NCBI GenBank assembly: GCA_947499255.1
Contig: CANMNF010000001.1
Coordinates: forward strand, 1,302,001 to 1,366,000
Length of the DNA: 64,000 nt
Direction of reading: 5' to 3'
Source: an uncultured Sphingomonadaceae bacterium
GTDB taxonomy: Bacteria > Pseudomonadota > Alphaproteobacteria > Sphingomonadales > Sphingomonadaceae
Below, in pieces: positions 8,071 through 19,313 of the stretch; the stretch's first letter is position 1; each line of letters starts with the position of its first letter. The notes under the pieces are model-generated. The model did not search any database. It was not told the origin of the DNA and saw nothing but the letters and a program-made list of their open reading frames with translations. Position numbers and translations under genes: made by a program.

Positions 8071-8655
8071 ATGGCAATTCTTCGTATTAATCTTACACCT
8101 GGTGGCGACACTTTCGACGACACCAATTCTAACACGTCCATCATTGCTGGTAATGACGGCGACGATACCATTGATGGTGGTGGCGGTTCAGATTTCATTC
8201 TCGGCAATGACGGCGATGACCTTATCGACGGCGGTACTGGACGCGACATCCTGTTCGGTGGACGCGGCGATGACACCATCTTCGGCGGTGCTGGTCGTGA
8301 CGTGCTGAACGGTGATTTCGGTGCCGATACGCTTCGCGGCGGCTCGGGCTTCGATGATTACATCTTCAGCAGCCGCACAGCTGGTTTTGATGAAAATGGC
8401 GCCGCTGCTTCTGACACGATCGTTGGTTTTGACGAAGCACGCGACACAATCTTCTTCGAAAAGTATGATGCCGCCGATGAACTGGTATACGTACAAGATG
8501 GTGCCGACGTAGAAATCTACGTTGATATCGACGGTGACAACCCAGTCACTGGTGATTATCTCGCCGCTACCGTCCTGAACTCGAATGTTGCAGCCGTTGC
8601 CGGCGTGACAACTATCAATGAAGAAGCGTTCTCGGACTTCCCATTCACGTTCTGA
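8071..8655 (+). CDS. Small RTX-type calcium-binding protein
   Basis: A 194-residue acidic protein. Residues 27-100 contain eight consecutive glycine/aspartate nonapeptides of the RTX type (for example GNDGDDTIDG, GGRGDDTIFG, GAGRDVLNG), which fold into a calcium-binding beta-roll. A C-terminal domain of about 90 residues lacks repeats, ends in SDFPFTF and could hold an uncleaved type I secretion signal. There is no N-terminal signal peptide. No type I secretion genes lie nearby. It is unusually short for an RTX protein; the function (adhesin, matrix protein or enzyme remnant) cannot be told. GGAG precedes ATG 8071 and a terminator follows. Confidence 0.82.
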   Translation: MAILRINLTPGGDTFDDTNSNTSIIAGNDGDDTIDGGGGSDFILGNDGDDLIDGGTGRDILFGGRGDDTIFGGAGRDVLNGDFGADTLRGGSGFDDYIFSSRTAGFDENGAAASDTIVGFDEARDTIFFEKYDAADELVYVQDGADVEIYVDIDGDNPVTGDYLAATVLNSNVAAVAGVTTINEEAFSDFPFTF

Positions 8656-8761: not shown

Positions 8762-8778
8762 ATGGATGCCCCGCAAGG
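8762..8778. repeat. attL core, 17-bp direct repeat
   Basis: ATGGATGCCCCGCAAGG, identical to 19239-19255. It is a remnant of the tRNA-Gln 3' end (including CCA) left at the far end of the element. Bases on either side differ between the copies, which sets the core limits. Confidence 0.9.
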
Positions 8779-8814
8779 GCATAAACAACCGAGATAATAC
8801 AAACCACTTACAGC

Positions 8815-8874
8815 GTCTAACCGGCACATTGTCGCCACGGTTTCCTGCGGGTTACAGGTTCCGGCTGTCTAACC
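8815..8874. repeat. Two GTCTAACC repeats next to attL (candidate integrase arm sites)
   Basis: GTCTAACC occurs at 8815-8822 and 8867-8874, and again next to attR at 19167-19174, with GTCTAAC inverted at 19185-19191. Clustering of the same short word just inside both ends is the pattern of arm-type sites for a tyrosine integrase. Binding is inferred. Confidence 0.55.
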
Positions 8875-8998
8875 TTTTGTGGCCGCCACCGCGCCGCAAA
8901 ATAAAAGCGCCCGATCTGGCGGCAACCGGATCGAGCGCGGGCAATACCATCACGGCGGAATTGCAAGAGCAGCTTACCGGCAACGGGAGGGCGGCGCA

Positions 8999-10969
8999 AT
9001 GACAGATATTCATGCAATGGCTCGCCGTTATGGCGGGGAGGTATCGGGCGGGCAGGCCCTTATCCCTTCGATTGGCCATAGCAAGGCGGACAGGGGCACG
9101 GCGGTCAAGCCTGATCCGAATGCGCCAGATGGCTGCCTAGTCCATTGCTTCAATGGCGGCGATCCGCTGGCAGAAAAGGACCGGCTACGCGCCGATGGTT
9201 TCCTGCCAGAGCGCGAACAGCGCAAGAGCGGGAATGACGGCAAGACCGCTTGGCGCTGCACCGGCACTTATGAATATGACGATGGCGACGGGACAGTGAT
9301 CTATCGCACGCGGCGGCTCGAACGTCCCGGCAGCAAGAAGCGCTTTTCTGCCGAGCGGTTGGACGGCAAAGATTGGGTATCCGGCTTGGGAGACGTGGAG
9401 CGCCTGCCTTACCGTTTCACTGAGATTTGCATTGCAGCGGAACGTGCCCGCGAGGCTGGCGAGCGCGCGCCAGTGGTCTATTTCGCTGAAGGCGAGCGCA
9501 AGGCCGATAAGTTGGCAAGCTGGGGCTTTCTGGCCACCGCAATCGCCTTTGGCTGCAATGGCTGGCGCGATAGCTATGGTGAGGCGTTTGCAGAATCCAC
9601 CGTGATTATCTTGCCTGACAATGATGCACCCGGTCACAAGTTCGCGCAAACCGTGAAAGCGGGAATAGAGCAGCACGGCGGCACTGCCCATCTGATCGAG
9701 CTTCCCGATTTACCGGGCGGCGGCGATATCATGGATTGGGCAGGCACAGCGGACGATCTGCGCGCGCTGACTGACAAGGCTATTGCAGGAAACCTCTTGC
9801 CTATCCCTACGCTCGATCTTGCCGATCTGGCAGGGCGGCAGGCGAAGGCAAAGCAGTTCGTGATGGAGCGATTGGCTCCCAAAGCCGAAGTGACCTTGTT
9901 CACCGGCCCAGGAGGCGCAGGCAAGAGCCTATGGGCGCAACAGGCGGCAACCGCCTGCGCAGCGGCAATAGGTCGCTGCGTGGGCTTGAGCGTGCAACCC
10001 GGCGCTGCGATCTATCTCACCTGTGAGGATGATGCCGAGCAGCTTCACTGGCGGCAACAGCACCTATGCGCCGCAATGGGCGTGTCTATGGCTGATCTTG
10101 TTGGCAAGCTGCACTTGATCAGTTTGCGGGGCGCGCTCGATAACGATCTTTGCACTTTCGATCAGGACGGCACCTTGACCGCAACAGCGGCGTATCATCG
10201 GCTTGTCGCCATGATCAAGGCAACCGGCGCACAACTGGTGTTTCTGGATAACGTGGCGCACCTGTTCACCGGCAACGAGAACGACCGGGGCGAAGTCACC
10301 CGTTTTATAAACCTGCTGAGCAGGCTGGCAGGCGAAACAGGTGCAGCCGTTGTTTTGATTGGCCACCCCAATAAGAGCGGCGATGACTATTCCGGTTCGA
10401 CCGCTTGGCTCAATGCGGTGCGCTCGCAATTCACCATAGACTACGTGCGCGACAATGACGGCCATATCCTTGATCCCGATGCGCGCGCTCTCTCCACGGG
10501 CAAAGCCAACTACACGCGCAAGGGCGAAACAGCTCGCTTTCGCTGGCACGATTGGGCCTTCATTCTTGAGGATGATCTGCCCGATGATATCCGGGCCGAG
10601 TTGGCAGAAACGATCAAGGTGAGCAGCGAGAATGAGGCTTTCCTCGCCTGTCTCCGGGAGCGTGAACAGCAAGGCGAAGGGCGGCTTGTCGGGCCTTCGA
10701 GCGGGCCGAATTATGCCCCGTCGCAATTTGAAGGAATGCCCAAGGCAAAGGGCTTGAAAAGGGCTGCGCTCAAGCGCGCCATGGACCGGCTCTATGACAC
10801 TGGCAGGATCGAATCCTACACCTATCGCAACACCGCAAAAGGACGTGATGTGACAGTCATTCGAGAGGTACAAAACACCACCCCGAACGCATCCCCGAAC
10901 GCTTCCCGAACACCCCCGAACAGTCCGCCCGAACACCCCCCCGAACACACCATATATCTAAAGATATAA
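8999..10969 (+). CDS. Primase-helicase replication protein (Toprim + RecA-like ATPase)
   Basis: A 656-residue replication protein. An N-terminal zinc-ribbon-like region (about residues 30-100) precedes a Toprim domain (VVYFAEGERKADKL near 159-172, ILPDNDAPG near 204-212). A RepA/DnaB-type ATPase follows with Walker A GPGGAGKS at 303-310, Walker B LVFLDNVAH, and a sensor strand VVLIGHPNKSGDDYSGS. The C-terminal quarter contains a winged-helix-like region and a Pro/Asn-rich tail. I chose ATG 8999, which has GGGAGG eight bases upstream; the frame is open from a GTG at 8879 without a ribosome site. The role, inferred from domains, is replication of the excised element. Confidence 0.85.
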   Translation: MTDIHAMARRYGGEVSGGQALIPSIGHSKADRGTAVKPDPNAPDGCLVHCFNGGDPLAEKDRLRADGFLPEREQRKSGNDGKTAWRCTGTYEYDDGDGTVIYRTRRLERPGSKKRFSAERLDGKDWVSGLGDVERLPYRFTEICIAAERAREAGERAPVVYFAEGERKADKLASWGFLATAIAFGCNGWRDSYGEAFAESTVIILPDNDAPGHKFAQTVKAGIEQHGGTAHLIELPDLPGGGDIMDWAGTADDLRALTDKAIAGNLLPIPTLDLADLAGRQAKAKQFVMERLAPKAEVTLFTGPGGAGKSLWAQQAATACAAAIGRCVGLSVQPGAAIYLTCEDDAEQLHWRQQHLCAAMGVSMADLVGKLHLISLRGALDNDLCTFDQDGTLTATAAYHRLVAMIKATGAQLVFLDNVAHLFTGNENDRGEVTRFINLLSRLAGETGAAVVLIGHPNKSGDDYSGSTAWLNAVRSQFTIDYVRDNDGHILDPDARALSTGKANYTRKGETARFRWHDWAFILEDDLPDDIRAELAETIKVSSENEAFLACLREREQQGEGRLVGPSSGPNYAPSQFEGMPKAKGLKRAALKRAMDRLYDTGRIESYTYRNTAKGRDVTVIREVQNTTPNASPNASRTPPNSPPEHPPEHTIYLKI

Positions 10970-11066
10970 CGGGCGCGGCTCCTTCAGGGCCGCCCACGCC
11001 CGATGAAGATGGCTGGCATGGCGAAAGTCCTGCTCAGACAGCAACGCGATTGGCAGGTGGCCAGCG

Positions 11067-11285
11067 ATGACAGACCTTGCCGCCTACATCGCAGCTATGC
11101 CGGAAGATCAGCGGGCTGTTGCAATCGGAGTGCTCGATGCTGTGAGCCGCCCCATGACTGTTCGCGAGATTGAGCGGGCATTGCGTGCCAACGGCGTAAC
11201 ACGATCAAGAGCCATCAAGTTGGCGGGAACACTGAAACACTTTCACATCATCGCAGTTGCTGGACCGGAGGTGGCAAATGGCTGA
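11067..11285 (+). CDS. Small helical protein, possible winged helix
   Basis: A 72-residue protein, not recognised by name. Residues 28-60 (TVREIERALRANGVTRSRAI and following) look like a helix-turn-helix with a short wing (HIIAVAG). Its end overlaps the HNH nuclease start by eight bases. Position before HNH and terminase matches where related elements carry a small terminase subunit or packaging regulator, but the sequence alone does not show that function. Confidence 0.65.
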   Translation: MTDLAAYIAAMPEDQRAVAIGVLDAVSRPMTVREIERALRANGVTRSRAIKLAGTLKHFHIIAVAGPEVANG

Positions 11286-11673
11286 TTGGCCTTACAACAC
11301 CGCCCGATGGCAACGCTTGCGCACTGCCAAGCTCAATGCCGAGCCGTTCTGCGAGGGCTGCGCAGCAATGGGCAATCCTCATGTCATCGCCAACACTGTC
11401 GATCACCGCACGCCTATTCGCGATGGCGGCCCTGCCTTCCCCGGACTCGATGGCCTCGCCAGCTATTGCCCCTCATGCCACGGTGCCAAGACCGCAAGAG
11501 GCAGTGAGGCTGGCGCGGTGAAGTCGAGCAAGCCCCGCCGAGGATGTGATGCCGATGGCAACCCGCTTGATCCAGCGCACCCGTGGCGAGAAAAATCGCT
11601 CAGGGCTGGCAGCATAAGACCGACACCCGTCCCGAAAAATCAATTAGTTTCTGAAAGCAACCGAAATGGGTAA
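11278..11673 (+). CDS. HNH endonuclease
   Basis: A 131-residue HNH nuclease. The core includes CEGCAAMGN, the catalytic VDHRTPIRDGG and the second metal knuckle YCPSCHGAK, with basic residues in the C-terminal third. HNH proteins beside the large terminase are needed for cos-type packaging in HK97-like phages and occur in the packaging module of cf-PICIs. ATG 11278 follows a strong GGAGGT site. It overlaps the previous gene by eight bases and the terminase start by eight. Confidence 0.88.
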   Translation: MADWPYNTARWQRLRTAKLNAEPFCEGCAAMGNPHVIANTVDHRTPIRDGGPAFPGLDGLASYCPSCHGAKTARGSEAGAVKSSKPRRGCDADGNPLDPAHPWREKSLRAGSIRPTPVPKNQLVSESNRNG

Positions 11674-13261
11674 GCGTGGCCCCGGTGCTGGCAAGCTGCG
11701 TGCAGCTGCGAAGGCTTATGACGAAGCCTCCTTTGTCGCGCACCCTTGGGACAAGGATGGGATGCCGGAAGCTGAGAAGGTTTTGGCATTCCTGGAGACA
11801 TTGCCAATCGTGTCAGGCTTGAAGGCTGGTGAGACGCTGGAGCTGCTGGAGTTTCAGCGGCAATTCGTCATGGGCGTATATGGCCCGCGTGATGATGCGG
11901 GCGGGCGTATGGTGCGATTGGCTGCGCTCAGTCTGGCGCGGGGCAACGGCAAGAGCTCCTTGCTGTCTGGCCTATCGTTGGCGCACCTGCTTGGCCCCTG
12001 TCTGGAGCCGTATGGGGAATGCTATGCGGCGGCGCTCGACCGGGAGCAGGCGGGCGTCCTGTATCACCAGACGCGGGCTTACATCGAAGCCACGCCTTGG
12101 ATGGCCGCGCGGGTGAATATCAAGGATTGGCACAAGGAAGTCATAGACGAGGAAAGCAATTCGCGATGGCGGGCGCTCACCAGTGATGCACGCAAGGCGC
12201 ACGGCCTCGCCCCTTCCTTCTGGGTTGCGGATGAAGTCGCGCAATGGCGCAGCCGGGAGCTGTGGGACAATCTGGCGACCGGCATGGGCAAGCGCGAAGC
12301 GGCGCTAGGCGTTACGATCAGCACGCAGGCCGCCGATGATCTGCACTTTTTCAGCGAGATGCTGGACGCAGAGCCGGTGCCCACCGTCTACACGCAGTTG
12401 CACGCGGCGGAGGATGATTGCGCGCTCGATGACTGCGAAGCATGGCAGGCGGCGAACCCGGCGCTGGGCACGTTCCTTAATGCCGAGCAATTTGCCGATG
12501 CAGCGGCACGGGCCATGCGTTCGCCTTCATTCGAGCCGAGCTTTCGCCTGTTGCAGCTCAATCAGCGGGTGGCGGCGGAGGGACGGTTCATCGAGCAAGC
12601 GGATTGGGATGCCAATGCTGAGCCGTTCGACGCAACCGAGCTGGAAGGCGAGAGATGCTTTGGCGGATTGGATCTGTCGAGCACGCGCGATCTAACCGCC
12701 CTCGCCCTATACTTTCCCGATCATGGCAAGGTGCTGGTGTGGCACTGGTTTCCTGCTGATACGATTGCGAAGCGGGTCGAGACAGACCGCGTGCCCTATG
12801 ACCGCTGGGCCGCCGATGGCTGGGCTGAGACAACCGTCGGCAATGCCCGCGATGATCTGGCCATTGCGCTCCAGCTTGCAGACATTCGCAGCCGGTATGA
12901 TGTGCAGGGGATAGCCTTCGACCGCTGGCAAATGGCACGCTTGAACAAGCTGCTGTCAGATGAGGGAATCGATTTGCCGATGCAGGATTTTGTCCCCGGC
13001 TTCAAAAGCTATGCGGCGGCAGTGGATGCCTTCGAGACGGCGCTGCTGGGCCGCAAGATGCGGCACAATGGCAACCCGCTGCTGCGCTGGCAGGCGGGCA
13101 ATGTGATCGTGGAAAGCGACCCTGCGGGCAACCGCAAGCCGACCAAGGCCAAGAGCCTTGACCGGGTTGACGGGATTATTTCCTGCATCATGGCCTGCGG
13201 TATCGCAGCGACCGAGCAAGGCCCGGAAGTCTATCGCGGCGAGGGGGTGATGTGGGTTTAA
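11666..13261 (+). CDS. Phage terminase large subunit (HK97-like, Terminase_1)
   Basis: A 531-residue DNA-packaging motor. The ATPase half has Walker A-like ARGNGKSS (91-98) and Walker B WVADE (186-190), with the coupling motif in TISTQAADD. The nuclease half shows GGLDLSSTRDLTAL and the late acidic RVDGIISCI. Length and motif spacing are those of full, active terminases. No small terminase gene is found immediately upstream, where it usually lies; HNH occupies that position. The 3' end overlaps the convergent 77-aa gene by four bases. Confidence 0.93.
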   Translation: MGKRGPGAGKLRAAAKAYDEASFVAHPWDKDGMPEAEKVLAFLETLPIVSGLKAGETLELLEFQRQFVMGVYGPRDDAGGRMVRLAALSLARGNGKSSLLSGLSLAHLLGPCLEPYGECYAAALDREQAGVLYHQTRAYIEATPWMAARVNIKDWHKEVIDEESNSRWRALTSDARKAHGLAPSFWVADEVAQWRSRELWDNLATGMGKREAALGVTISTQAADDLHFFSEMLDAEPVPTVYTQLHAAEDDCALDDCEAWQAANPALGTFLNAEQFADAAARAMRSPSFEPSFRLLQLNQRVAAEGRFIEQADWDANAEPFDATELEGERCFGGLDLSSTRDLTALALYFPDHGKVLVWHWFPADTIAKRVETDRVPYDRWAADGWAETTVGNARDDLAIALQLADIRSRYDVQGIAFDRWQMARLNKLLSDEGIDLPMQDFVPGFKSYAAAVDAFETALLGRKMRHNGNPLLRWQAGNVIVESDPAGNRKPTKAKSLDRVDGIISCIMACGIAATEQGPEVYRGEGVMWV

Positions 13262-13491
13262 GCGATAGGTGGGGCCTCGGCGTATGTCCGTTTGCCGCCC
13301 CCGTAGCTGCAGTGGACATTTACGCTGTGGAAACTTCCATCGGCATTTGCGTAAATCTCTACTTCTTCAACAATTTGCTTGTTCTCTCCACCGGCCAAAG
13401 TCATCACAATAAAGTCACCAGCACGAGGGATCATTGGCCAGTCTTGCGTAAGGCCACGCGGATAGTCTTCGCTGTATAGTGTTACTTGCAT
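13258..13491 (-). CDS. Opposite-strand orphan protein in the element
   Basis: A 77-residue protein with balanced composition (contains IPRAGDFIVMTLAGGENKQI and a Gly-rich tail), not recognised. It is the only minus-strand gene in the element. GGA lies about eight bases before ATG 13491. Such inverted single genes between structural modules are often accessory 'moron' genes (immunity, defence or helper interference), but nothing in the sequence shows which. Confidence 0.6.
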   Translation of the reverse strand: MQVTLYSEDYPRGLTQDWPMIPRAGDFIVMTLAGGENKQIVEEVEIYANADGSFHSVNVHCSYGGGKRTYAEAPPIA

Positions 13492-13590
13492 TGACCTAAT
13501 TCCTCTTCTGTGCCCATATGAGAGCGAGACGACCCGGCGCTACCAACGCCGAGCCGCCTCTGACCACAACCGATCCTTAGGAGATCAATC

Positions 13591-13977
13591 ATGGCTAAGC
13601 ACTTTCTACGGGGGGAATCCGTCCCCGTCATCCTTCCCGATAATCTTATCAACGCGGCGGCATTGCTGGCACAGGTCAATCGTGACCAGATTGCGCAGAC
13701 AATCGAATTGCTGGTTGCCTTCCTGGACGTGACAGACGCCGATCCCGAAGCCGAAGTCACGCGGGCCGAAGACGACTTTGTAACCCTTCCCCCCGGCATA
13801 GACTACGGCCCCGGCTGCGCTCTGAGCGATGCGGGCGGCGGCAACGATGCCGAAGACGATCACTGCCTGTCGCCAGCGGCCATGGAGAGCGCGTTACGCG
13901 GTGCAGGCTGCGCAGTGGCCGATCCGGGCGGCTGCGAGCATGATGGGCGCGAACCTGCATACCACGACGAAGCCTAA
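13591..13977 (+). CDS. Acidic hypothetical phage protein
   Basis: A 128-residue acidic protein. The N-terminal half is helical (LLAQVNRDQIAQTIELLVAF); the C-terminal half is rich in Asp, Gly and Ala, with short motifs such as DPGGCEHDGRE. AGGAG precedes the ATG at a good distance. Similar Asp/Glu-rich small proteins occur in alphaproteobacterial prophages, without known function. It could be a DNA-mimic-like protein, but that is speculation from charge alone. Confidence 0.65.
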   Translation: MAKHFLRGESVPVILPDNLINAAALLAQVNRDQIAQTIELLVAFLDVTDADPEAEVTRAEDDFVTLPPGIDYGPGCALSDAGGGNDAEDDHCLSPAAMESALRGAGCAVADPGGCEHDGREPAYHDEA

Positions 13978-14050
13978 CTCTCTCCCCGGCTTTGGCGGGC
14001 CGCTGGCCACGGCTTGCGACTTGGCCAAAGCGAGATGTTCACAGGGCACT

Positions 14051-14103
14051 TTCTTATTGCAAGAAAAGTGCTTGCGTTATCCTGTTTCTTATGCCAAGAA
14101 AAG
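14051..14103. promoter_or_regulatory. Two 18-bp dyad repeats at the regulator promoter
   Basis: TTCTTATTGCAAGAAAAG (14051-14068) and TTCTTATGCCAAGAAAAG (14086-14103) match at 16 of 18 bases, 35 bases apart, and each contains the inverted repeat TTCTT-N5-AAGAA. They flank the likely promoter and cover the 14091 start codon of the regulator, the arrangement of an autoregulated operator. Confidence 0.65.
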
Positions 14104-14618
14104 ATATGCCATCGACGCGCGACTTTGACAGATTCGACATGACCGCCGCTGAGCTGGTGAAAATGACCCGCGCAAGCGAAGGAATTAAGCTGGTGCATAA
14201 CCTGACTGACCGGGGAATCATCCCTTTCCGCAAGGATGGACGGTCGCGGCTGTATTCATTCGCAAGCGTGCTGGCGTTCGACACCATGCTTCGCGCTCGC
14301 GGCGTGGGCCTTGGCCTGCATGAAGGGGCAAAGCTCGCTGATCGAGTCATCGCCCGCGCCAAAGAGAGAGTTGCAGATCTCTACATCGATCTGCGGGTAA
14401 TAAAGGGGCATGAATGGTTGATCTATGCTTTCGACCGGGAGGTCGATCCGCCTCACCTGCAAGCCTTTATTGTAACCGGTGATCAGAAAATTGCCGATAT
14501 CCAGCTTACCACGGTATCTGGCTGGCCAAGCGACGTCACAAGCGTTTTCCCGATTGACCGTGTGATATGGGAATGTGCCGATTCGTATGATCGGCACCGG
14601 AAAGAAAAGGATTCATGA
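14091..14618 (+). CDS. MerR-like transcriptional regulator of the element
   Basis: A 175-residue protein with an N-terminal winged helix-turn-helix of MerR type: MTAAELVKMTRASEGIKLVH, then a basic hairpin around FRKDGRSRLYSF, then a helix with an aromatic-poor effector half. It is the only regulator seen in the element, so it probably controls the capsid genes that follow it. The start is ATG 14091 or ATG 14106. The second is attractive because the 14086-14103 dyad would then lie wholly upstream; neither has a clear ribosome site. Its TGA overlaps the next ATG. Confidence 0.75.
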   Translation: MPRKDMPSTRDFDRFDMTAAELVKMTRASEGIKLVHNLTDRGIIPFRKDGRSRLYSFASVLAFDTMLRARGVGLGLHEGAKLADRVIARAKERVADLYIDLRVIKGHEWLIYAFDREVDPPHLQAFIVTGDQKIADIQLTTVSGWPSDVTSVFPIDRVIWECADSYDRHRKEKDS

Positions 14619-14770
14619 AATCGCCTTCCCCCAAGGCGTTCCCTGCCAAGTCTGGCAACGGGATAGCAGTGCATCGCAAGGGGGGCAAACCCGCCAACGT
14701 CGCGAGACAGTCGGCAATCTCAGTGCTGGGGACCGTGACCCCGGCCAGACAGAAGGATATTTACCAATGA
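14615..14770 (+). CDS. 51-aa protein between regulator and capsid gene
   Basis: A small basic protein beginning MKSPSPKAFPAKSGNGIAV and ending in ARQKDIYQ. It is supported by gene fit: AAAAGG precedes the ATG, the ATG overlaps the regulator stop by four bases, and its own TGA overlaps the capsid ATG (ATGA), so it bridges two genes by translational coupling. It lies in the place of a scaffold or capsid-associated protein, but it is short and no family was recognised. Confidence 0.6.
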   Translation: MKSPSPKAFPAKSGNGIAVHRKGGKPANVARQSAISVLGTVTPARQKDIYQ

Positions 14771-15993
14771 AAACTGCGGACCTTATGGAACAGCGAGCGG
14801 CCATTGTGGACCGCATGAACGCTGCACACAAAGCCGACGACGATCAGGCATTTGGCACTGCTGAAACTGATCTGCGCGCGCTTGATGGCAAGATCGAGCG
14901 CCAGCGCAAGATCGATCAGGCCGAGCGCCAAGAGACTGGCAAGCCTATCAGCGGCGATACCAAGCTCGATACCGAGCTGCGCAGCAAGTTCAGCGTCACG
15001 CGGGCAATCGCTCACGCCGCCGGCCTTGATGTCGATGCAGGCTTTGAGCGCGAGATGCAGACCGAATTGGCCAAGCGTGCCGGGCGAAGCGCAGAAGGTG
15101 TTTTCATTCCGGCAGAAGTGTTTGAGAAACGCGCATTGACCACATCGGCAGGAGGCGAGCTGGTTCCTACCGATCACCGCCCCGATCAGTATATCTCGGC
15201 ACTGACAGCATCGTCTGTTGTGCGCGGCATGGGTGCCCGTGTGCTCAATGGCCTGACCGGCAACATCACCATCCCGCGTGAAACCGGCGCGCCCGCAATC
15301 GGCTGGGTGGCAGAGAACGCCGCCCTTTCGAGCGATGATGCCGACTTCGACAACGTGACCCTTTCCCCAAAGCACGCTGGTGCATTGTCGGAATGGTCAC
15401 GCAACATGCTCTTGCAGGCTTCGCCCGATGTTGAGCAGCTTTTGCGCGATATGCTTGCCCGCGATCTGGCAACCGCAATTGACCGCGCTGCGATCCAAGG
15501 TGGCGGCACAAATGAACCGGACGGCGTTCTGGCCACCACTGGCATTCAGACCGAAGCCTATGGCACATCGCTTTTCGCAACGAGCGCAGAAGCAATTGCA
15601 AAGGCCGATATTGCCAATGTTGGCACGGCACGGCGCAGCTTCCTGTCGAGCAATGATGTGAAGAAAATCGCCATGCTGGCGCAGGACGCGAACGACCTGC
15701 CTATCGGCGTTGGCACCATCTTCCACAATGAGGCGACCACCTTCACCAATCAGGTGCCTACAGACCTTGGCGGCGGCAATGACGAGCACGCTTTGATCTA
15801 CGGCGATTGGAGCGAGTTGATGATTGGCGTCTGGAGCGAGATCGACCTGCTGGTCAATCCGTTCGAAAGCACGGCCTATTCCAAAGGCAATGTCATGATC
15901 CGCGCAATGGCGACTGTCGATTGTGCGGTTCGTCATCCGGCGGCATTTGTTTCTGTAACTGGCGTTACTGCCAGCGCAGCGGGCATCGCCTAA
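14767..15993 (+). CDS. HK97-family major capsid protein
   Basis: A 408-residue major capsid protein. Residues 1-105 form a charged, helical delta/scaffold-like region starting MKTADLMEQRAAIVDRMNAA that a protease would remove. The HK97 fold follows with hallmark strands such as TIPRETGAPAIGWVAENA, the AIDRAAIQGGGTNEPDGVLA loop and a C-terminal HPAAFVSVTGVT. ATG 14767 has AAGGA upstream; the open frame before it belongs to the preceding small gene. The protease gene starts on the last base of the stop codon. Confidence 0.93.
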   Translation: MKTADLMEQRAAIVDRMNAAHKADDDQAFGTAETDLRALDGKIERQRKIDQAERQETGKPISGDTKLDTELRSKFSVTRAIAHAAGLDVDAGFEREMQTELAKRAGRSAEGVFIPAEVFEKRALTTSAGGELVPTDHRPDQYISALTASSVVRGMGARVLNGLTGNITIPRETGAPAIGWVAENAALSSDDADFDNVTLSPKHAGALSEWSRNMLLQASPDVEQLLRDMLARDLATAIDRAAIQGGGTNEPDGVLATTGIQTEAYGTSLFATSAEAIAKADIANVGTARRSFLSSNDVKKIAMLAQDANDLPIGVGTIFHNEATTFTNQVPTDLGGGNDEHALIYGDWSELMIGVWSEIDLLVNPFESTAYSKGNVMIRAMATVDCAVRHPAAFVSVTGVTASAAGIA

Positions 15994-16535
15994 TGGGCGC
16001 CGCGGCAACCCTTGAACGGCGTTTCGCAAGTCAATTGCGCAGCGCCGGGAGCCGTATCACGGGCTATGCCGCCACGTTCGCTACAGAAGCGGATTTGGGC
16101 GCGTTCCGGGAACGAATTTTGCCGGGTGCATTCCGGGGCGCGCTCAATAACGATATCCTTGCTTTGCTGGACCATGACACGGGCAAAGTGCTTGGGCGCA
16201 CGCGCACCGGCACGCTCCAGCTTCGCGAGGATGACAAAGGCTTGGCCTTTACGCTCGACGTGCCTGACACGGCTGCGGGGCGGGATGTTCTCGCCCTTGC
16301 CGCACGCGGCGATCTTGGCGGCATGAGCTTTGGCTTCAAGGTGCCCGCTGGTGGCGAGACTTGGGACGGCGACACGCGGACCCTGCAAACCATCGATCTG
16401 CGCGAAATCAGCGTTGTCAGTGCATGGCCAGCTTATGAGGGCACCGAGATTGCCTTGAGGGCCATGCAGCACCACACGGGCGCTCAGCGGCGTGCAAGGG
16501 CGATCAGGCTGGCGGAGGCGCGCGCATGGGCATGA
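15993..16535 (+). CDS. HK97-family prohead protease
   Basis: A 180-residue serine protease of the HK97 prohead (S78) family that trims the capsid N-terminus during maturation. The catalytic His lies in ILALLDHDTGKVLGRT and the Ser in GDLGGMSFGFKV, with the conserved ISVVSAWPAYEGTEIAL near the C-terminus. It begins at the overlapping base of the capsid stop and overlaps the portal start by ten bases. The order capsid then protease is the reverse of the usual HK97 module. Confidence 0.9.
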   Translation: MGAAATLERRFASQLRSAGSRITGYAATFATEADLGAFRERILPGAFRGALNNDILALLDHDTGKVLGRTRTGTLQLREDDKGLAFTLDVPDTAAGRDVLALAARGDLGGMSFGFKVPAGGETWDGDTRTLQTIDLREISVVSAWPAYEGTEIALRAMQHHTGAQRRARAIRLAEARAWA

Positions 16536-17677
16536 TAGACCGCCTTGCAGCCTTTGCGGGCTTTGAAAAGCGCAGCGATGCGAGCGAACCTTCCTGGGCA
16601 GCGCTTGCCCCCGGTATCGGCTACATGGCTGGCACATCGGCCCGCGTAGCAGAAAACCTGTCAGCGGTTCTGGCCTGCACAAATGTCATTGCCGAAGCCT
16701 TGGCCTATGTCCCTGCGATCACATATCGGCGCGAGGGCACAACCCGCATGGAAGACCCTGCACACCCGCTGCAACGGCTGGTGCGCGGCGGCGTCAATGA
16801 GCGCCAGACTTGGCCTGACTTTATCAGTCATCTGGTTGCTTCCACCCTTTTGACCGGCAACGGCCTCGCTGAAATCGAGCGCAGCGGCAATGGCCGGCTG
16901 AGCGGATTTACCTATCTGCCTTGGGGCAGTGTAACTGTTGCCGAGCTTTCGAGCGGGCGGCTGGCCTATGATTATGCAGACGGACGCGGCAAGACGCGGC
17001 GCTATCTTGAAGGCGAAGTCATCCACCTGCGCGACCGCACAGATGACGGCAAAATCGGGCGTTCGCGTCTGAGCCGTGCAGCCGATACCGTCGACGGCGT
17101 CACCCTCGCCCATGCCCATGCGCGCGCCTTCCTTGGCAATGGTGCATCACCATCGGGCGTGATCGAGCACCCGGGCACCATGACCGGCGATCAGCGCACG
17201 GCATTGCGGACACAATTTGCCGAGCGCCATGGCGGTGCCAGCAAGGCAGGCTCTACCCTCATTCTTGACGGCGGACTGACTTGGAAGGCGGCGCAGATAT
17301 CGCCTGAGGATGCAGAGCTGCTGGAAACCCGCAAGTTTGGCACTGAGGAAATCTGCCGCTTGTTTCAGGTGCCCCCGCCACTGGTGCAGGATTACTCAAA
17401 CAACACATTTACGAATAGCGAGATGGCAGGCCGCTGGTTTGCCATGTTCTGCCTTGCAAGCTGGGCACGCAAGATCGAAGCCGAGTTCGCGCGCAGCGTC
17501 TTTCCCGTCAATGGCCCGCATGAGCTTGAGCTGGATCTGTCAGGCTTCCTGCGCGGCGATCCCAAAACCCGCTGGGATGCCCACAAGATTGCCCTTGAGG
17601 CAGGCGTGCTGGACCCGGACGAAGTGCGCCAGCTCGAAGGCTGGAACCCGCGCAATCAGGAGATGAGCAATGGCTGA
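16526..17677 (+). CDS. HK97-family phage portal protein
   Basis: A 383-residue portal forming the dodecameric vertex through which DNA enters the head. Typical segments include SAVLACTNVIAEALA near the N-terminus, the TGNGLAEIER strand, GKIGRSRLSRA, and the FGTEEICRLFQVPPPLVQD region followed by NNTFTNSEMAGRWF. Length is standard. It overlaps the protease by ten bases and the connector by eight. Confidence 0.93.
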   Translation: MGMIDRLAAFAGFEKRSDASEPSWAALAPGIGYMAGTSARVAENLSAVLACTNVIAEALAYVPAITYRREGTTRMEDPAHPLQRLVRGGVNERQTWPDFISHLVASTLLTGNGLAEIERSGNGRLSGFTYLPWGSVTVAELSSGRLAYDYADGRGKTRRYLEGEVIHLRDRTDDGKIGRSRLSRAADTVDGVTLAHAHARAFLGNGASPSGVIEHPGTMTGDQRTALRTQFAERHGGASKAGSTLILDGGLTWKAAQISPEDAELLETRKFGTEEICRLFQVPPPLVQDYSNNTFTNSEMAGRWFAMFCLASWARKIEAEFARSVFPVNGPHELELDLSGFLRGDPKTRWDAHKIALEAGVLDPDEVRQLEGWNPRNQEMSNG

Positions 17678-17939
17678 TCTTGTATTGCTGAGCGAGGCGA
17701 AAGACTTTTTGCGTGTCGATCACACGGCAGACGATGCACTGATCAGCACACTGGTGGCGGCTGCGAGCGCTGCGGTGCTGGATATTGCCGACGCATGGGA
17801 TGGCACTGGAGACGCGCCTGCACGCCTGAAAATGGCGGTGCTGTCGCGTGTGGCAGTGACCTATGACGGGCGCGACCAACTGCACCCCGGCGATGGTGAG
17901 GACCGGCTGCTATCGCCGTTCCGGGAGCTTGGCTGCTGA
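17670..17939 (+). CDS. Head-tail connector (gp6-like)
   Basis: An 89-residue adaptor of the gp6-like head-tail connector family, which docks below the portal and prepares the head for a tail. The family features LSEAKDFLRVDHTADDALIS and the mid-helix VLSRVAVTYDGRDQ are present. It is the last structural gene: nothing resembling a tail stopper, tail tube or tape measure follows. In a tail-less element this is the piece that would have to fit a helper phage's tail. Confidence 0.85.
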   Translation: MADLVLLSEAKDFLRVDHTADDALISTLVAAASAAVLDIADAWDGTGDAPARLKMAVLSRVAVTYDGRDQLHPGDGEDRLLSPFRELGC

Positions 17940-18124
17940 TGACTGGACGGAAAAATTTTGTGCCGCGCAAAGTGATGCAAGAAGCGTCAGAAATTTGTGT
18001 TGCGACCAATTCGATTATAGAAATCGAGACGGCCACCTTCAAGGTCCGCGTCACACCGGCGATAGGGCTTAATCATCTTGCCCAAAATGACGATCTTGAT
18101 GAGCGATTGGACGGTTTCGCATGA
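17939..18124 (+). CDS. Hypothetical 61-aa protein
   Basis: A small protein starting MTGRKNFVPRKVMQEASEIC; not recognised. The start overlaps the connector stop by one base and the end overlaps the integrase ATG by four (ATGA), so it is likely translated. It could be a minor head-completion protein or an excisionase-like factor given its place before the integrase; the sequence does not decide. Confidence 0.55.
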   Translation: MTGRKNFVPRKVMQEASEICVATNSIIEIETATFKVRVTPAIGLNHLAQNDDLDERLDGFA

Positions 18125-19185
18125 AGCGCCGGTTTCAATATGTCTCAAGCTTCAATGACCGGCACGGCAAGCGGCGGTATCAATTCCGGCGCAAGGGATA
18201 CCCTCGCCACTATTTCAAATCGCCATACGGAACCAAGGCATTCGAGAAAGAATATGCCGCTTGTCTTGCCGCTGAAAAGCCCTCTATCGGCGCTGGCAGG
18301 ATTCGCCCTGGCAGCGTGTCAGACGTGATCATTCGCTATTACGCTGATACCAAGTTTCAAGACCTGAAACCCGCTACACAAGCCGTCTATCGCGGCGTGC
18401 TGGAACGTTTCCGCAAGACCTTTGGCGATGATCTGATCAGGCAATTCGATGCCAAGCGCATCCAACGCGTCATGAACAATATGCGCGAGAAGCCCTACGC
18501 CGCGATCCGGCTGCGCAAGTTGCTCGCACGGCTATTCGTAATAGCGCGCCGGGAACGGCTGGTGGCAATGTCCTTCGATCCCGTGAAGGATACCGATCCG
18601 CCCAAGGCAGGCGACTTCGCTGCCGACGGCAAAGAGCGCGGATATCATCGCTGGACCGACGCAGAGCTTGAGCAGTTTGAGGCAAAGCACCCGCTGGGCA
18701 CGAAACCCCGCCTTGCCTTTGCATTGCTATTGTATGGCGCTCAGCGCAGCGGTGATGTGCGCTTCCTGACGCACTCGGCATTGGCAGATGGCCGTATTCG
18801 GCTCAGGCAAAGCAAGACTTCCAATTCTGTCGATGTGCCGATTGTCGCACCTTTGCGCGAGGCGCTGGACGCTGGACCGGCTGGCGATCTGCTGGTGCTG
18901 GAAAACAATCGCGGCGCTGCCTTCACCGCCAAGGGCTTTTACAACATGGTCAAGCGCGCCTGCATTGCTGCTGATCTACCCCATTGCTCAGCACATGGCC
19001 TACGCAAAGCGGCTGCAAGACGCCTTCGCGAAGCCGGTTGCAGCGATGAAGAAGGCATGGCGATCACTGGCCATAAGACAGTTCGAGAGTTCCTGCGCTA
19101 TGCCGGAAATACAGGCGATAGTGCCCGCGCAGACAGTGCCATGGAAAAGGCATATGGTCTGAAAGTGTCTAACCACGACGAATAG
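18121..19185 (+). CDS. int: Tyrosine recombinase integrase
   Basis: A 354-residue site-specific recombinase. An N-terminal arm-binding region (1-60) and a SAM-like core-binding domain (about 62-150) precede the catalytic domain with Arg209 (GAQRSGDVR), Lys231-232, His292 and Arg295 (AHGLRKAA), His318 (TGHK) and the probable nucleophile Tyr327 (FLRYAGN). All catalytic positions are filled. It ends 53 bases before the attR core in the tRNA gene, the standard integrase-next-to-tRNA arrangement. It sits at the end of the structural operon rather than under an early promoter, which is unusual. Confidence 0.93.
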   Translation: MKRRFQYVSSFNDRHGKRRYQFRRKGYPRHYFKSPYGTKAFEKEYAACLAAEKPSIGAGRIRPGSVSDVIIRYYADTKFQDLKPATQAVYRGVLERFRKTFGDDLIRQFDAKRIQRVMNNMREKPYAAIRLRKLLARLFVIARRERLVAMSFDPVKDTDPPKAGDFAADGKERGYHRWTDAELEQFEAKHPLGTKPRLAFALLLYGAQRSGDVRFLTHSALADGRIRLRQSKTSNSVDVPIVAPLREALDAGPAGDLLVLENNRGAAFTAKGFYNMVKRACIAADLPHCSAHGLRKAAARRLREAGCSDEEGMAITGHKTVREFLRYAGNTGDSARADSAMEKAYGLKVSNHDE

Positions 19186-19191
19186 TTAGAC
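19167..19191. repeat. GTCTAACC and inverted GTCTAAC next to attR
   Basis: GTCTAACC at 19167-19174 and its inverted 7-base core at 19185-19191 match the pair beside attL. They overlap the last codons of int. Candidate arm-type integrase sites. Confidence 0.55.
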
Positions 19192-19238
19192 AATCATCCA
19201 CACTAACCCATAGGGATTATTGGAAAAATGACTGATAG

Positions 19239-19255
19239 ATGGATGCCCCGCAAGG
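19239..19255. repeat. attR core, 17-bp direct repeat
   Basis: Identical to 8762-8778. It covers the CCA, discriminator, acceptor strand and first T-stem bases of the intact tRNA-Gln, so the host tRNA was kept whole after integration. Confidence 0.9.
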
Positions 19256-19313
19256 ATTCGAACCTTGATTGACGGAGTCAGAGTCCGCTCTCTTACCGTT
19301 AGAGGACGGGGCA
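19240..19313 (-). tRNA. tRNA-Gln (anticodon CTG)
   Basis: Cloverleaf: acceptor TGCCCCG/CGGGGCA, D arm CTCT-AACGGTA-AGAG, anticodon stem GCGGA/TCCGT with loop CTCTGAC (anticodon CTG), T stem CAAGG/CCTTG with loop TTCGAAT, discriminator T, encoded CCA. All stems pair. Integration target of the element. Confidence 0.95.

Follow-up and report, generated by a model that had tools for sequence, protein, structure and literature searches.

What kind of element is the 10.48 kb island that sits in a tRNA-Gln gene of this sphingomonad genome: a prophage in decay, a small virus that needs no tail, or a phage satellite that builds its own heads? We considered this question in the window, that is, the whole 64,000-nt stretch of DNA that was analysed, and in the relatives of the island. 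The evidence set out below makes an integrative capsid-forming phage satellite the very probable answer.

The island is flanked at either end by a 17-bp core, ATGGATGCCCCGCAAGG. The left copy (8762..8778) reproduces the 3′ end of the tRNA-Gln, and the right copy (19239..19255) lies inside the tRNA-Gln (CTG) gene itself (19240..19313, minus strand; ARAGORN and Rfam), which is kept intact; these positions agree with the preliminary description, which had claimed two defined ends and an insertion at tRNA-Gln. For comparison, a given 16-mer is expected by chance in about 3e-5 exact copies in 64 kb. A sister element in a congener (G558) occupies the same tRNA-Gln with the same core, the 16-mer TGGATGCCCCGCAAGG being present twice with a spacing of 10,625 bp, and another congener (G550) has an unoccupied site, where sequence matching the gene of the left flank stops 45 bp from the tRNA-Gln. 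Other insertions at the same tRNA were observed in G537, G544 and G103.

We counted 13 ORFs in the island, all on the plus strand, as are both cores, with the exception of one. The first is a primase-helicase (8999..10969) with an AAA_25 domain and a very weak Toprim match (Pfam PF13481, E 1.2e-32; PHROG 239, E 1.1e-31). A 72-aa helical, winged-helix-like protein (11067..11285) immediately precedes an HNH endonuclease (11257..11673; PF01844, PHROG 2323), which overlaps the large terminase (TerL) with its ATPase and nuclease domains (11666..13261; PF20441, PF03354, PHROG 9, E 4.8e-114). Then come the only minus-strand ORF, small and with no family match (13258..13491), an acidic protein of 128 aa, which has counterparts in the relatives (alignment A2, n = 10) but no Pfam or PHROG family (13591..13977), and, between TerL and capsid, an HTH-like protein which is a probable regulator (14091..14618; HTH_17, E 0.03); among the unlabelled ORFs of the relatives, MerR_1 matches were found in 2 of 82 and 5 of 66 in two sets. 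The head module consists of an HK97-type major capsid protein (14767..15993; PF05065, PHROG 617), an S78 prohead protease (15990..16535; PF04586, E 3.1e-41), a portal protein (16526..17677; PF04860, E 2.6e-90) and a gp6-like, Ad1 head-tail connector (17670..17939; PF05135, PHROG 40). It is followed by a 61-aa protein with no family and weak kin in alignment A3 (17939..18124) and, immediately downstream, by a tyrosine integrase (18121..19185; PF00589, PHROG 1).

Pfam and PHROGs thus bear out the eight functions first read from the ORFs, namely integrase, primase-helicase, HNH, TerL, capsid, protease, portal and connector. The starts of the capsid and primase genes were mended to ATG 14767 and ATG 8999, respectively. 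Two other statements had to be corrected: "nearly all genes overlap" was too strong, since 8 of the 12 adjacent pairs overlap and the remaining 4 are separated by gaps of 97-145 bp, and the "regulator" placed at 11067-11285 matches neither a Pfam family nor, below E 0.06, any PHROG, the HTH-like protein being located elsewhere. Structures matched by the capsid profile include the RcGTA capsids 6tba and 6tb9 and, with a stronger match, 8gta, taken to be Dinoroseobacter phage R4C. Precisely, profile positions 129-392 match 8gta_A 1-261, and the N-terminal ~128 aa have no counterpart in this nearest solved capsid chain.

As previously described, neither a tail nor a lysis family was recognised among the 13 ORFs with Pfam and PHROGs. 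The same searches returned no small-terminase family for these ORFs, save for the HNH protein, which has an additional match to PHROG 4581 (annotated as small terminase, E 8.4e-6). The 72-aa protein gave no decisive fold match and may be either the missing small terminase or a regulator. Because the island has its own head and packaging motor and no recognisable tail, its tails are probably borrowed from other virus-like particles.

The island is one of many relatives, which form a recurrent, compact and easily recognised lineage. Of 125 matching viral contigs 80 were kept, and the relative set comprised 100 loci, 81 of them from IMG/VR and 71 with at least 9 kb of sequence. In these 71 longer loci we found the portal in 71, the protease in 71, the capsid in 69, TerL in 65 and HNH in 64, and an extra head-closure protein (PF05521) in 18. 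The capsid-protease-portal order is kept in 93 of the 94 loci possessing all three genes and the HNH-TerL-capsid order in 64 of 65. The largest size class among the 81 IMG/VR loci is 9.5-11 kb (33 loci) and the next is 4-6 kb (19 loci, which are short contigs); the length of the relatives is no proof of packaged DNA, because many ends are due to IMG/VR trimming or contig breaks. One metagenome relative (L032) shows a 24-bp self-overlap with the portal gene split across its ends, as in a circle; a terminal overlap was seen in 1 of 22 relative sequences in one set and in none in another.

In the portal tree (quick method), 94 family rows were split from 17 portals of resident prophages with an SH-aLRT of 100, so that the island, as judged from its portal sequence, is a member of a distinct clade. 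Among isolated phages (50,697 records), every record matched by TerL, portal or capsid was below 60% identity, with 36-38% as the best TerL values among the matches listed. The flanks of 13 loci (62 of 89 ORFs scanned) did not reveal the same island inside a longer prophage with tail genes; beyond the tRNA of one of these loci (L053) a P2-like head cluster is present. A single tape-measure-like gene was found in each of five relative loci, in a tail-family scan that covered, for L079-L138, parts of 12. The lack of recognised tail genes, which holds for the island of the window, thus does not extend to every member of the family. Where this gene occurs, in few relatives, it occupies the former HNH/TerL place.

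Directly 5′ of the capsid gene lies a conserved two-hairpin leader RNA (14691..14763, plus strand), which scores 75.5 bits with model R1, built from 18 sequences including the window's own leader, and which is preceded by an upstream RNA-like module (14619..14690, plus strand; type 1 arrangement). Counting the two-hairpin RNA in this position, 64 loci have it and 19 others lack it. Pair counts show strong covariation, with G-U pairs and almost no A-C pairs when read on the capsid sense strand, and a GNRA loop occurs in every distinct strong row. No Rfam family matches it, and among the titles and abstract starts listed there was no paper on it, which does not imply absence from print.

Strong matches are so far confined to elements of the island's kind. 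Weak ones were set aside: 32.7 and 27.6 bits in the tailed-phage-like L071/L150 of G004, 5′ of a probable scaffold gene and of its capsid gene; 26.3 bits 5′ of a P22-like coat gene (L078); 23.8 bits for the second copy in L121 and in L133; and 31.7 bits in G103, probably by chance, in a 3-kb locus without the family capsid. The names scaffold, P22-like and tailed come here from reading rather than from a family search. The leader, which ends at the ribosome-binding site, probably controls the capsid gene post-transcriptionally; it is a separate result, which suggests RNA-level control of capsid making. A bolder proposal, which we consider unlikely, is that it acts in cis as an RNA switch of a new class, tying head synthesis to the tail donor, maybe the host gene transfer agent (GTA) rather than a phage, through binding of a donor protein or signal.

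Taken as a capsid-forming satellite, the island would work as follows. Its integrase would insert it at tRNA-Gln; upon a helper signal it would be excised as a 10.5-kb circle and be replicated by its own primase-helicase. Capsid, protease, portal and connector would build an HK97-type head, with the leader RNA acting on capsid synthesis; HNH and TerL would package the island DNA, and tails and lysis would be supplied by another tailed particle.

We weighed three other readings. A prophage stripped of tail and lysis genes and now decaying would account for head genes of the ordinary HK97 type, and one relative is visibly broken (L058, in which the TerL match covers only residues 1-181 of 531). 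In the island, however, all frames are open, with neither terminase nor capsid pseudogenised, in line with the preliminary description, and pN/pS values of 0.15-0.34 (13 comparisons, 6 genes) indicate purifying selection. These values, together with the sister element that shares this tRNA and core and with the empty site in another congener, argue that this is probably not a decayed prophage; the recurrence of the same tail-less plan across divergent elements and a portal clade separate from resident prophages also make decay very unlikely. An autonomous small virus with no need of a tail, suggested by the self-contained replication, head and packaging genes, is the least credible reading of all: the island encodes both a portal and a connector of the gp6-like type, the head-closure protein of the longer relatives would serve tail joining, and genes for entry or lysis were not recognised.

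The third reading accepts the satellite and changes the donor, which raises the question of tail origin. With two Pfam models, the host's only other PF04860 portal and its only PF03237 terminase were found together, at C2 ~657.6-659.9 kb, in a cluster with proteins resembling an RcGTA distal tail protein and a further protein of the GTA tail end, hence GTA tails are a possible source. Moreover, the gene of this further tail-end protein is present in 14 of the 15 genomes with a strong leader-RNA match vs 229 of 396 overall (p 0.003, a value that ignores relatedness, includes the window's own genome and takes the two 396-genome samples of the order as the same draw). Nevertheless, the connectors show no likeness beyond chance, the matches of the portal (30%) and of the protease (35%) to the GTA reflect ordinary HK97-type kinship, and satellite and GTA may simply be at home in the same clades; in addition, a helper phage would not have to reside in the host, and the host search consisted of a few tail or head models. 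We regard the host's GTA, in place of a phage, as an improbable tail donor, and return to a satellite served by a helper.

Among known systems, RcGTA-like agents share HK97-type head genes with the island, but a GTA is a head-tail cluster that has no integrase and does not replicate itself, whereas the island has an integrase, a primase, att sites and no tail. PLE satellites, which form chimeric tails, are described as carrying a tape-measure-like gene, as some relatives of the island do, and PLE11 virions as using the helper's capsid proteins (PMC12987554); the island of the window differs in both respects. Classical Gram-negative PICIs are presented as small, integrated and transcribed in one direction (PMC6092414), as is the island save for one small ORF, and it shares their integrase with a defined attachment site. 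PICIs are, however, described as helper-dependent for encapsidation (PMC10690885), whereas the island encodes its own head. The Streptomyces satellites MulchRoom and MiniFlayer are reported to encode packaging and capsid genes of their own (PMC10690885), as the island does, but with virulent helpers, direct terminal repeats and no obvious replicases, while the island has a primase-helicase and is tRNA-integrated.

The closest plan is that of the cf-PICIs, described as having their own capsid, protease, portal, connector, TerL and HNH and as using a helper's tails (PMC10690885, PMC11389934), with putative tmp genes reported in some of them (PMC12987554), which recall the tape-measure-like gene of the five relatives. 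The island likewise carries its own capsid, prohead protease, portal and head-tail connector and its own TerL and HNH, and no tail genes. Its gene plan, which is what we likened here rather than the founding cf-PICI sequences, supports a cf-PICI mode of working, with own head, own motor and borrowed tail. Of the initial cf-PICI assignment, the tail-less, integrase-bearing head-and-packaging plan stands and membership of the named family is not proven, the small terminase being unrecognised. The founding cf-PICI paper is reportedly that of Alqurainy et al. (2023) and may list relatives; the titles and abstract starts listed included no paper on such an element in sphingomonads, which does not imply absence from print. 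To our knowledge, there are few experimental systems for capsid-forming satellites, and this lineage supplies testable elements in alphaproteobacteria. Compared with cf-PICIs of the EcCIEDL933 type, with which it shares own head genes, TerL and HNH, the island differs in the lack of a recognised small terminase, in the order HNH-TerL followed by capsid-protease-portal, in its structured leader RNA and in its alphaproteobacterial lineage.

The 10.48-kb island (8762..19255) lies in tRNA-Gln(CTG) (19240-19313, minus strand), and the borders of the preliminary description, 8762 and 19255, were exact to the base: a 17-bp core at 8762-8778 is repeated at 19239-19255, within the 3' end of the tRNA gene. 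The gene content described there (primase-helicase, HNH, TerL, capsid, protease, portal, connector and integrase) was upheld by profile searches, which identified HNH, TerL with both domains, an HK97 capsid, an S78 protease and a tyrosine integrase, and which gave no match to a tail or lysis family among the 13 ORFs scanned. The statement that nearly all genes overlap held for 8 of the 12 gene junctions and failed for the other 4. To the left of the island, an RTX-repeat gene (8071-8655) separates the flanking host gene from the att core.

A single capsid search led to 22 viral contigs and a search with an alignment of 21 portals to 125, of which 80 were kept. Genes were counted in 100 loci, excluding L053, and the counts refer to loci, not elements, some elements appearing twice (e.g. 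L069 and L127; L068 and L199). Among the 71 loci with at least 9 kb of sequence, portal and protease were present in all 71, capsid in 69, TerL in 65, HNH in 64, an integrase resembling the window's in 44, connector in 37, a primase resembling the window's in 36, a head-closure protein in 18 and a tape-measure-like gene in 5. The order capsid-protease-portal was kept in 93 of 94 loci (the sole exception, L032, is a permuted contig) and the order HNH-TerL-capsid in 64 of 65 (exception, L096), and the sequence lengths of the 81 IMG/VR loci peaked at 9.5-11 kb (33 loci). The excluded L053 is a satellite remnant (capsid, protease, cut integrase) adjoining tRNA-Arg, on whose far side lie P2-like terminase and capsid genes; L058, in genome G035, is a decayed member with a shortened TerL and a large insert, and the same genome holds the intact-looking L059.

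Records with capsid or portal relatives carried the names Rhizobium, Sinorhizobium, Novosphingobium, Sphingobium, Porphyrobacter, Xanthobacter, Hirschia and Sphingomonadales, and one 48% portal relative came from a Desulfovibrio MAG record. In 149 genomes of the GTDB family, a portal at 67% or more was found in 6 besides the window's own, with a 51% portal in G101 and an 82% portal fragment in G056. Counting the window's own, 11 of 197 genomes passed E 1e-60 in a portal search, 4 of them with distant prophage-type portals; in a class-level sample the count was 3 of 385, again with the window's own.

A prophage relic, already considered less likely in the preliminary description since no gene is broken, is improbable in view of the open reading frames, the pN/pS values and the position of the portal. 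The pN/pS values were 0.15-0.34 in 13 comparisons over six genes (TerL, portal, capsid, protease, integrase and HNH), with synonymous sites near saturation. A portal tree of 111 rows, made with a quick method, set 94 family rows apart from 17 resident-prophage portals (SH-aLRT 100, stem 1.66, with long-branch warnings), the latter labelled as tailed on the basis of four neighbourhoods. As a control, 46 of the 98 ORFs of these neighbourhoods gave 2 tape-measure matches amid many head genes, therefore the same PHROGs search is able to detect tails. Against 50,697 records of isolated phages, taking the best match per record, every best match was below 60% identity for portal (1489 records matched; top listed row 34%), capsid (138; 34%) and TerL (1376; 38%).

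In G558, of the same genus, a sister element occupies the same tRNA-Gln, with a 16-mer of the core found twice, 10,625 bp apart, and with integrase, TerL and protease 77%, 86% and 82% identical to those of the island. In the congener G550 the left-flank gene is matched from its residue 7 on, up to a point 45 bp short of tRNA-Gln, hence the site is unoccupied there; the window's RTX protein has no match in that stretch. Other family members adjoin a tRNA gene for Gln, Tyr, Lys, Arg, Glu, Cys, Phe, Ser or Gly (adjacency only). The ends of L032, a metagenome contig of 10,191 bp, overlap by 24 bp and divide the portal gene between them, as a circle would; such self-overlap was seen in L032 alone in one set of 22 pieces and in none of a second set. 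Other insertions, roughly 8 to 14 kb, lie at the same tRNA-Gln in the congeners G537, G544 and G103 (L167, L168 and L169), with a 49-nt duplicated tRNA piece in G537 and G544.

The most surprising part of the finding is a leader RNA, 73 nt (14691-14763) preceding the capsid gene, with two predicted hairpins, the first GNRA-capped and often bulged, the second with an outer 3-bp helix ending at the ribosome-binding site. A model built on 18 sequences gave 69 matches in 99 sources, 64 of them at ≥49.7 bits, whose 3' ends fall from 3 nt past to 8 nt before the homology-estimated start of the capsid gene. Of 93 family loci, window counted, 64 have the leader, 19 are without it despite a capsid start and >150 nt upstream, 6 are cut or unclear and 4 are without a capsid match. 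Over the 69 matches (63 distinct, five weak ones counted in), 99.5% of cells were paired and double changes occurred at 11 of 16 pairs, in 145 cells versus 44 in shuffles (0 of 500 reached 145), the alignment being fitted to the structure, so that these counts lean in its favour; pairing fell to 36-52% when the partner was shifted by 1-3 columns. In the 59 distinct strong rows the GNRA loop always fits, and there are 25 G-U or U-G pairs, one C-A and no A-C, therefore it is the RNA in capsid sense that is structured.

The leader matched in 10 of the 149 genomes of the GTDB family (8 strong, all before a family capsid) and in 17 of 396 genomes of the order (15 strong, ≥41.5 bits, 14 before a family capsid). 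The 15th, in G870, lies about 80 nt before a capsid whose likeness to the window's is just 25%, and its element has a 65% integrase; between portal and integrase this element (L195) has ORFs at 12243-14547 that resemble, on reading, an IS21-type transposase pair. Rfam had no family for the leader, either in the window (E up to 5) or in six relatives (gathering score). Upstream of it, relatives have further modules, alternating or in tandem; one, drawn as a pseudoknot-like three-helix set, had 99.7% of cells paired and 27 double-change cells versus 6.7 in shuffles, over 17 of the 18 sequences found. The simplest reading would be that the leader controls capsid translation. In unrelated phages (L071 and L150 (G004), L078), weak hairpins resembling the leader precede a probable scaffold gene and capsid genes, a hint that the first hairpin may be in wider use beyond the family.

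The island would make its own head and motor and, having no tail, would need another particle to supply tails and lysis. From the capsid profile match to 8gta_A (phage R4C), which starts at position 129, we infer that the S78 protease would remove roughly the first 128 aa of the capsid. TerL has PAJU2 and HK97-group phages as its top listed matches, a kinship that would fit HNH-assisted cos packaging. Profile searches recognised no small terminase among the ORFs of the island; the 72-aa protein that precedes HNH, for which sequences of the window and 17 relatives were aligned, is no more than a candidate.

When the host was searched with PF04860 and PF03237, the only other portal matching the former and the only terminase matching the latter were found together on contig 2, in an RcGTA-like head-tail cluster (about 646.6-660.5 kb) that PF10145 and PF13547 did not pick up. 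One cluster protein resembles the distal tail protein of RcGTA (6tba_6B, E 3.5e-42); a second resembles both 6tba_8A (E 1.1e-48), likewise of RcGTA, and the Megatron protein of 8gtc. The gene for the 6tba_8A-like protein is present in 229 of 396 genomes of the order, and 14 of the 15 genomes with a strong leader are among the matches listed (G694 is not; p 0.003, ignoring relatedness and assuming that both 396-genome samples are the same genomes). Island and host gene transfer agent (GTA) are 30% identical in portal and 35% in protease, with no match between connectors. We regard the GTA as a possible tail donor as a lead, not as evidence of use.

For tail families in relatives, 146 of 185 unlabelled ORFs from 30 loci were scanned, one PHROGs table giving the best 25 of 32 families. 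The matches listed included replication initiators, MerR regulators and a head-closure protein (PF05521). One listed family bore a tail name, 'tail fiber'; its 88-aa member is encoded between the capsid and protease genes of L048 and L049 and, judged by position, may be a head protein. A long ORF outside that scan, in L069/L127 (5270-7285; Rhizobium sp. Root274) and L097 (4357-6336), 60% identical and partially matched in L101, occupies the usual place of HNH and TerL and reads as a putative tape measure; PHROG 8892 (tape measure) matched one member of protein alignment A14, taken to be the L097 ORF. Another long ORF in that place, in L197 of G754 (10727-12505), has no match to these and is tape-measure-like on reading alone. 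TerL is absent from all five loci with a tape-measure-like gene; a sixth TerL-less locus, L057, is cut by the contig end.

Judging from gene content and kinship, we consider the island to be a capsid-forming satellite of phages, belonging to a lineage that recurs mainly in alphaproteobacteria, and the cf-PICI-like reading proposed earlier is supported by its own head and packaging genes, its integrase, its defined ends and the lack of a recognised tail gene. It would be a variant of the known cf-PICI kind, in which putative tmp genes have already been reported (PMC12987554), a likeness to the tape-measure-like gene of five relative loci here.
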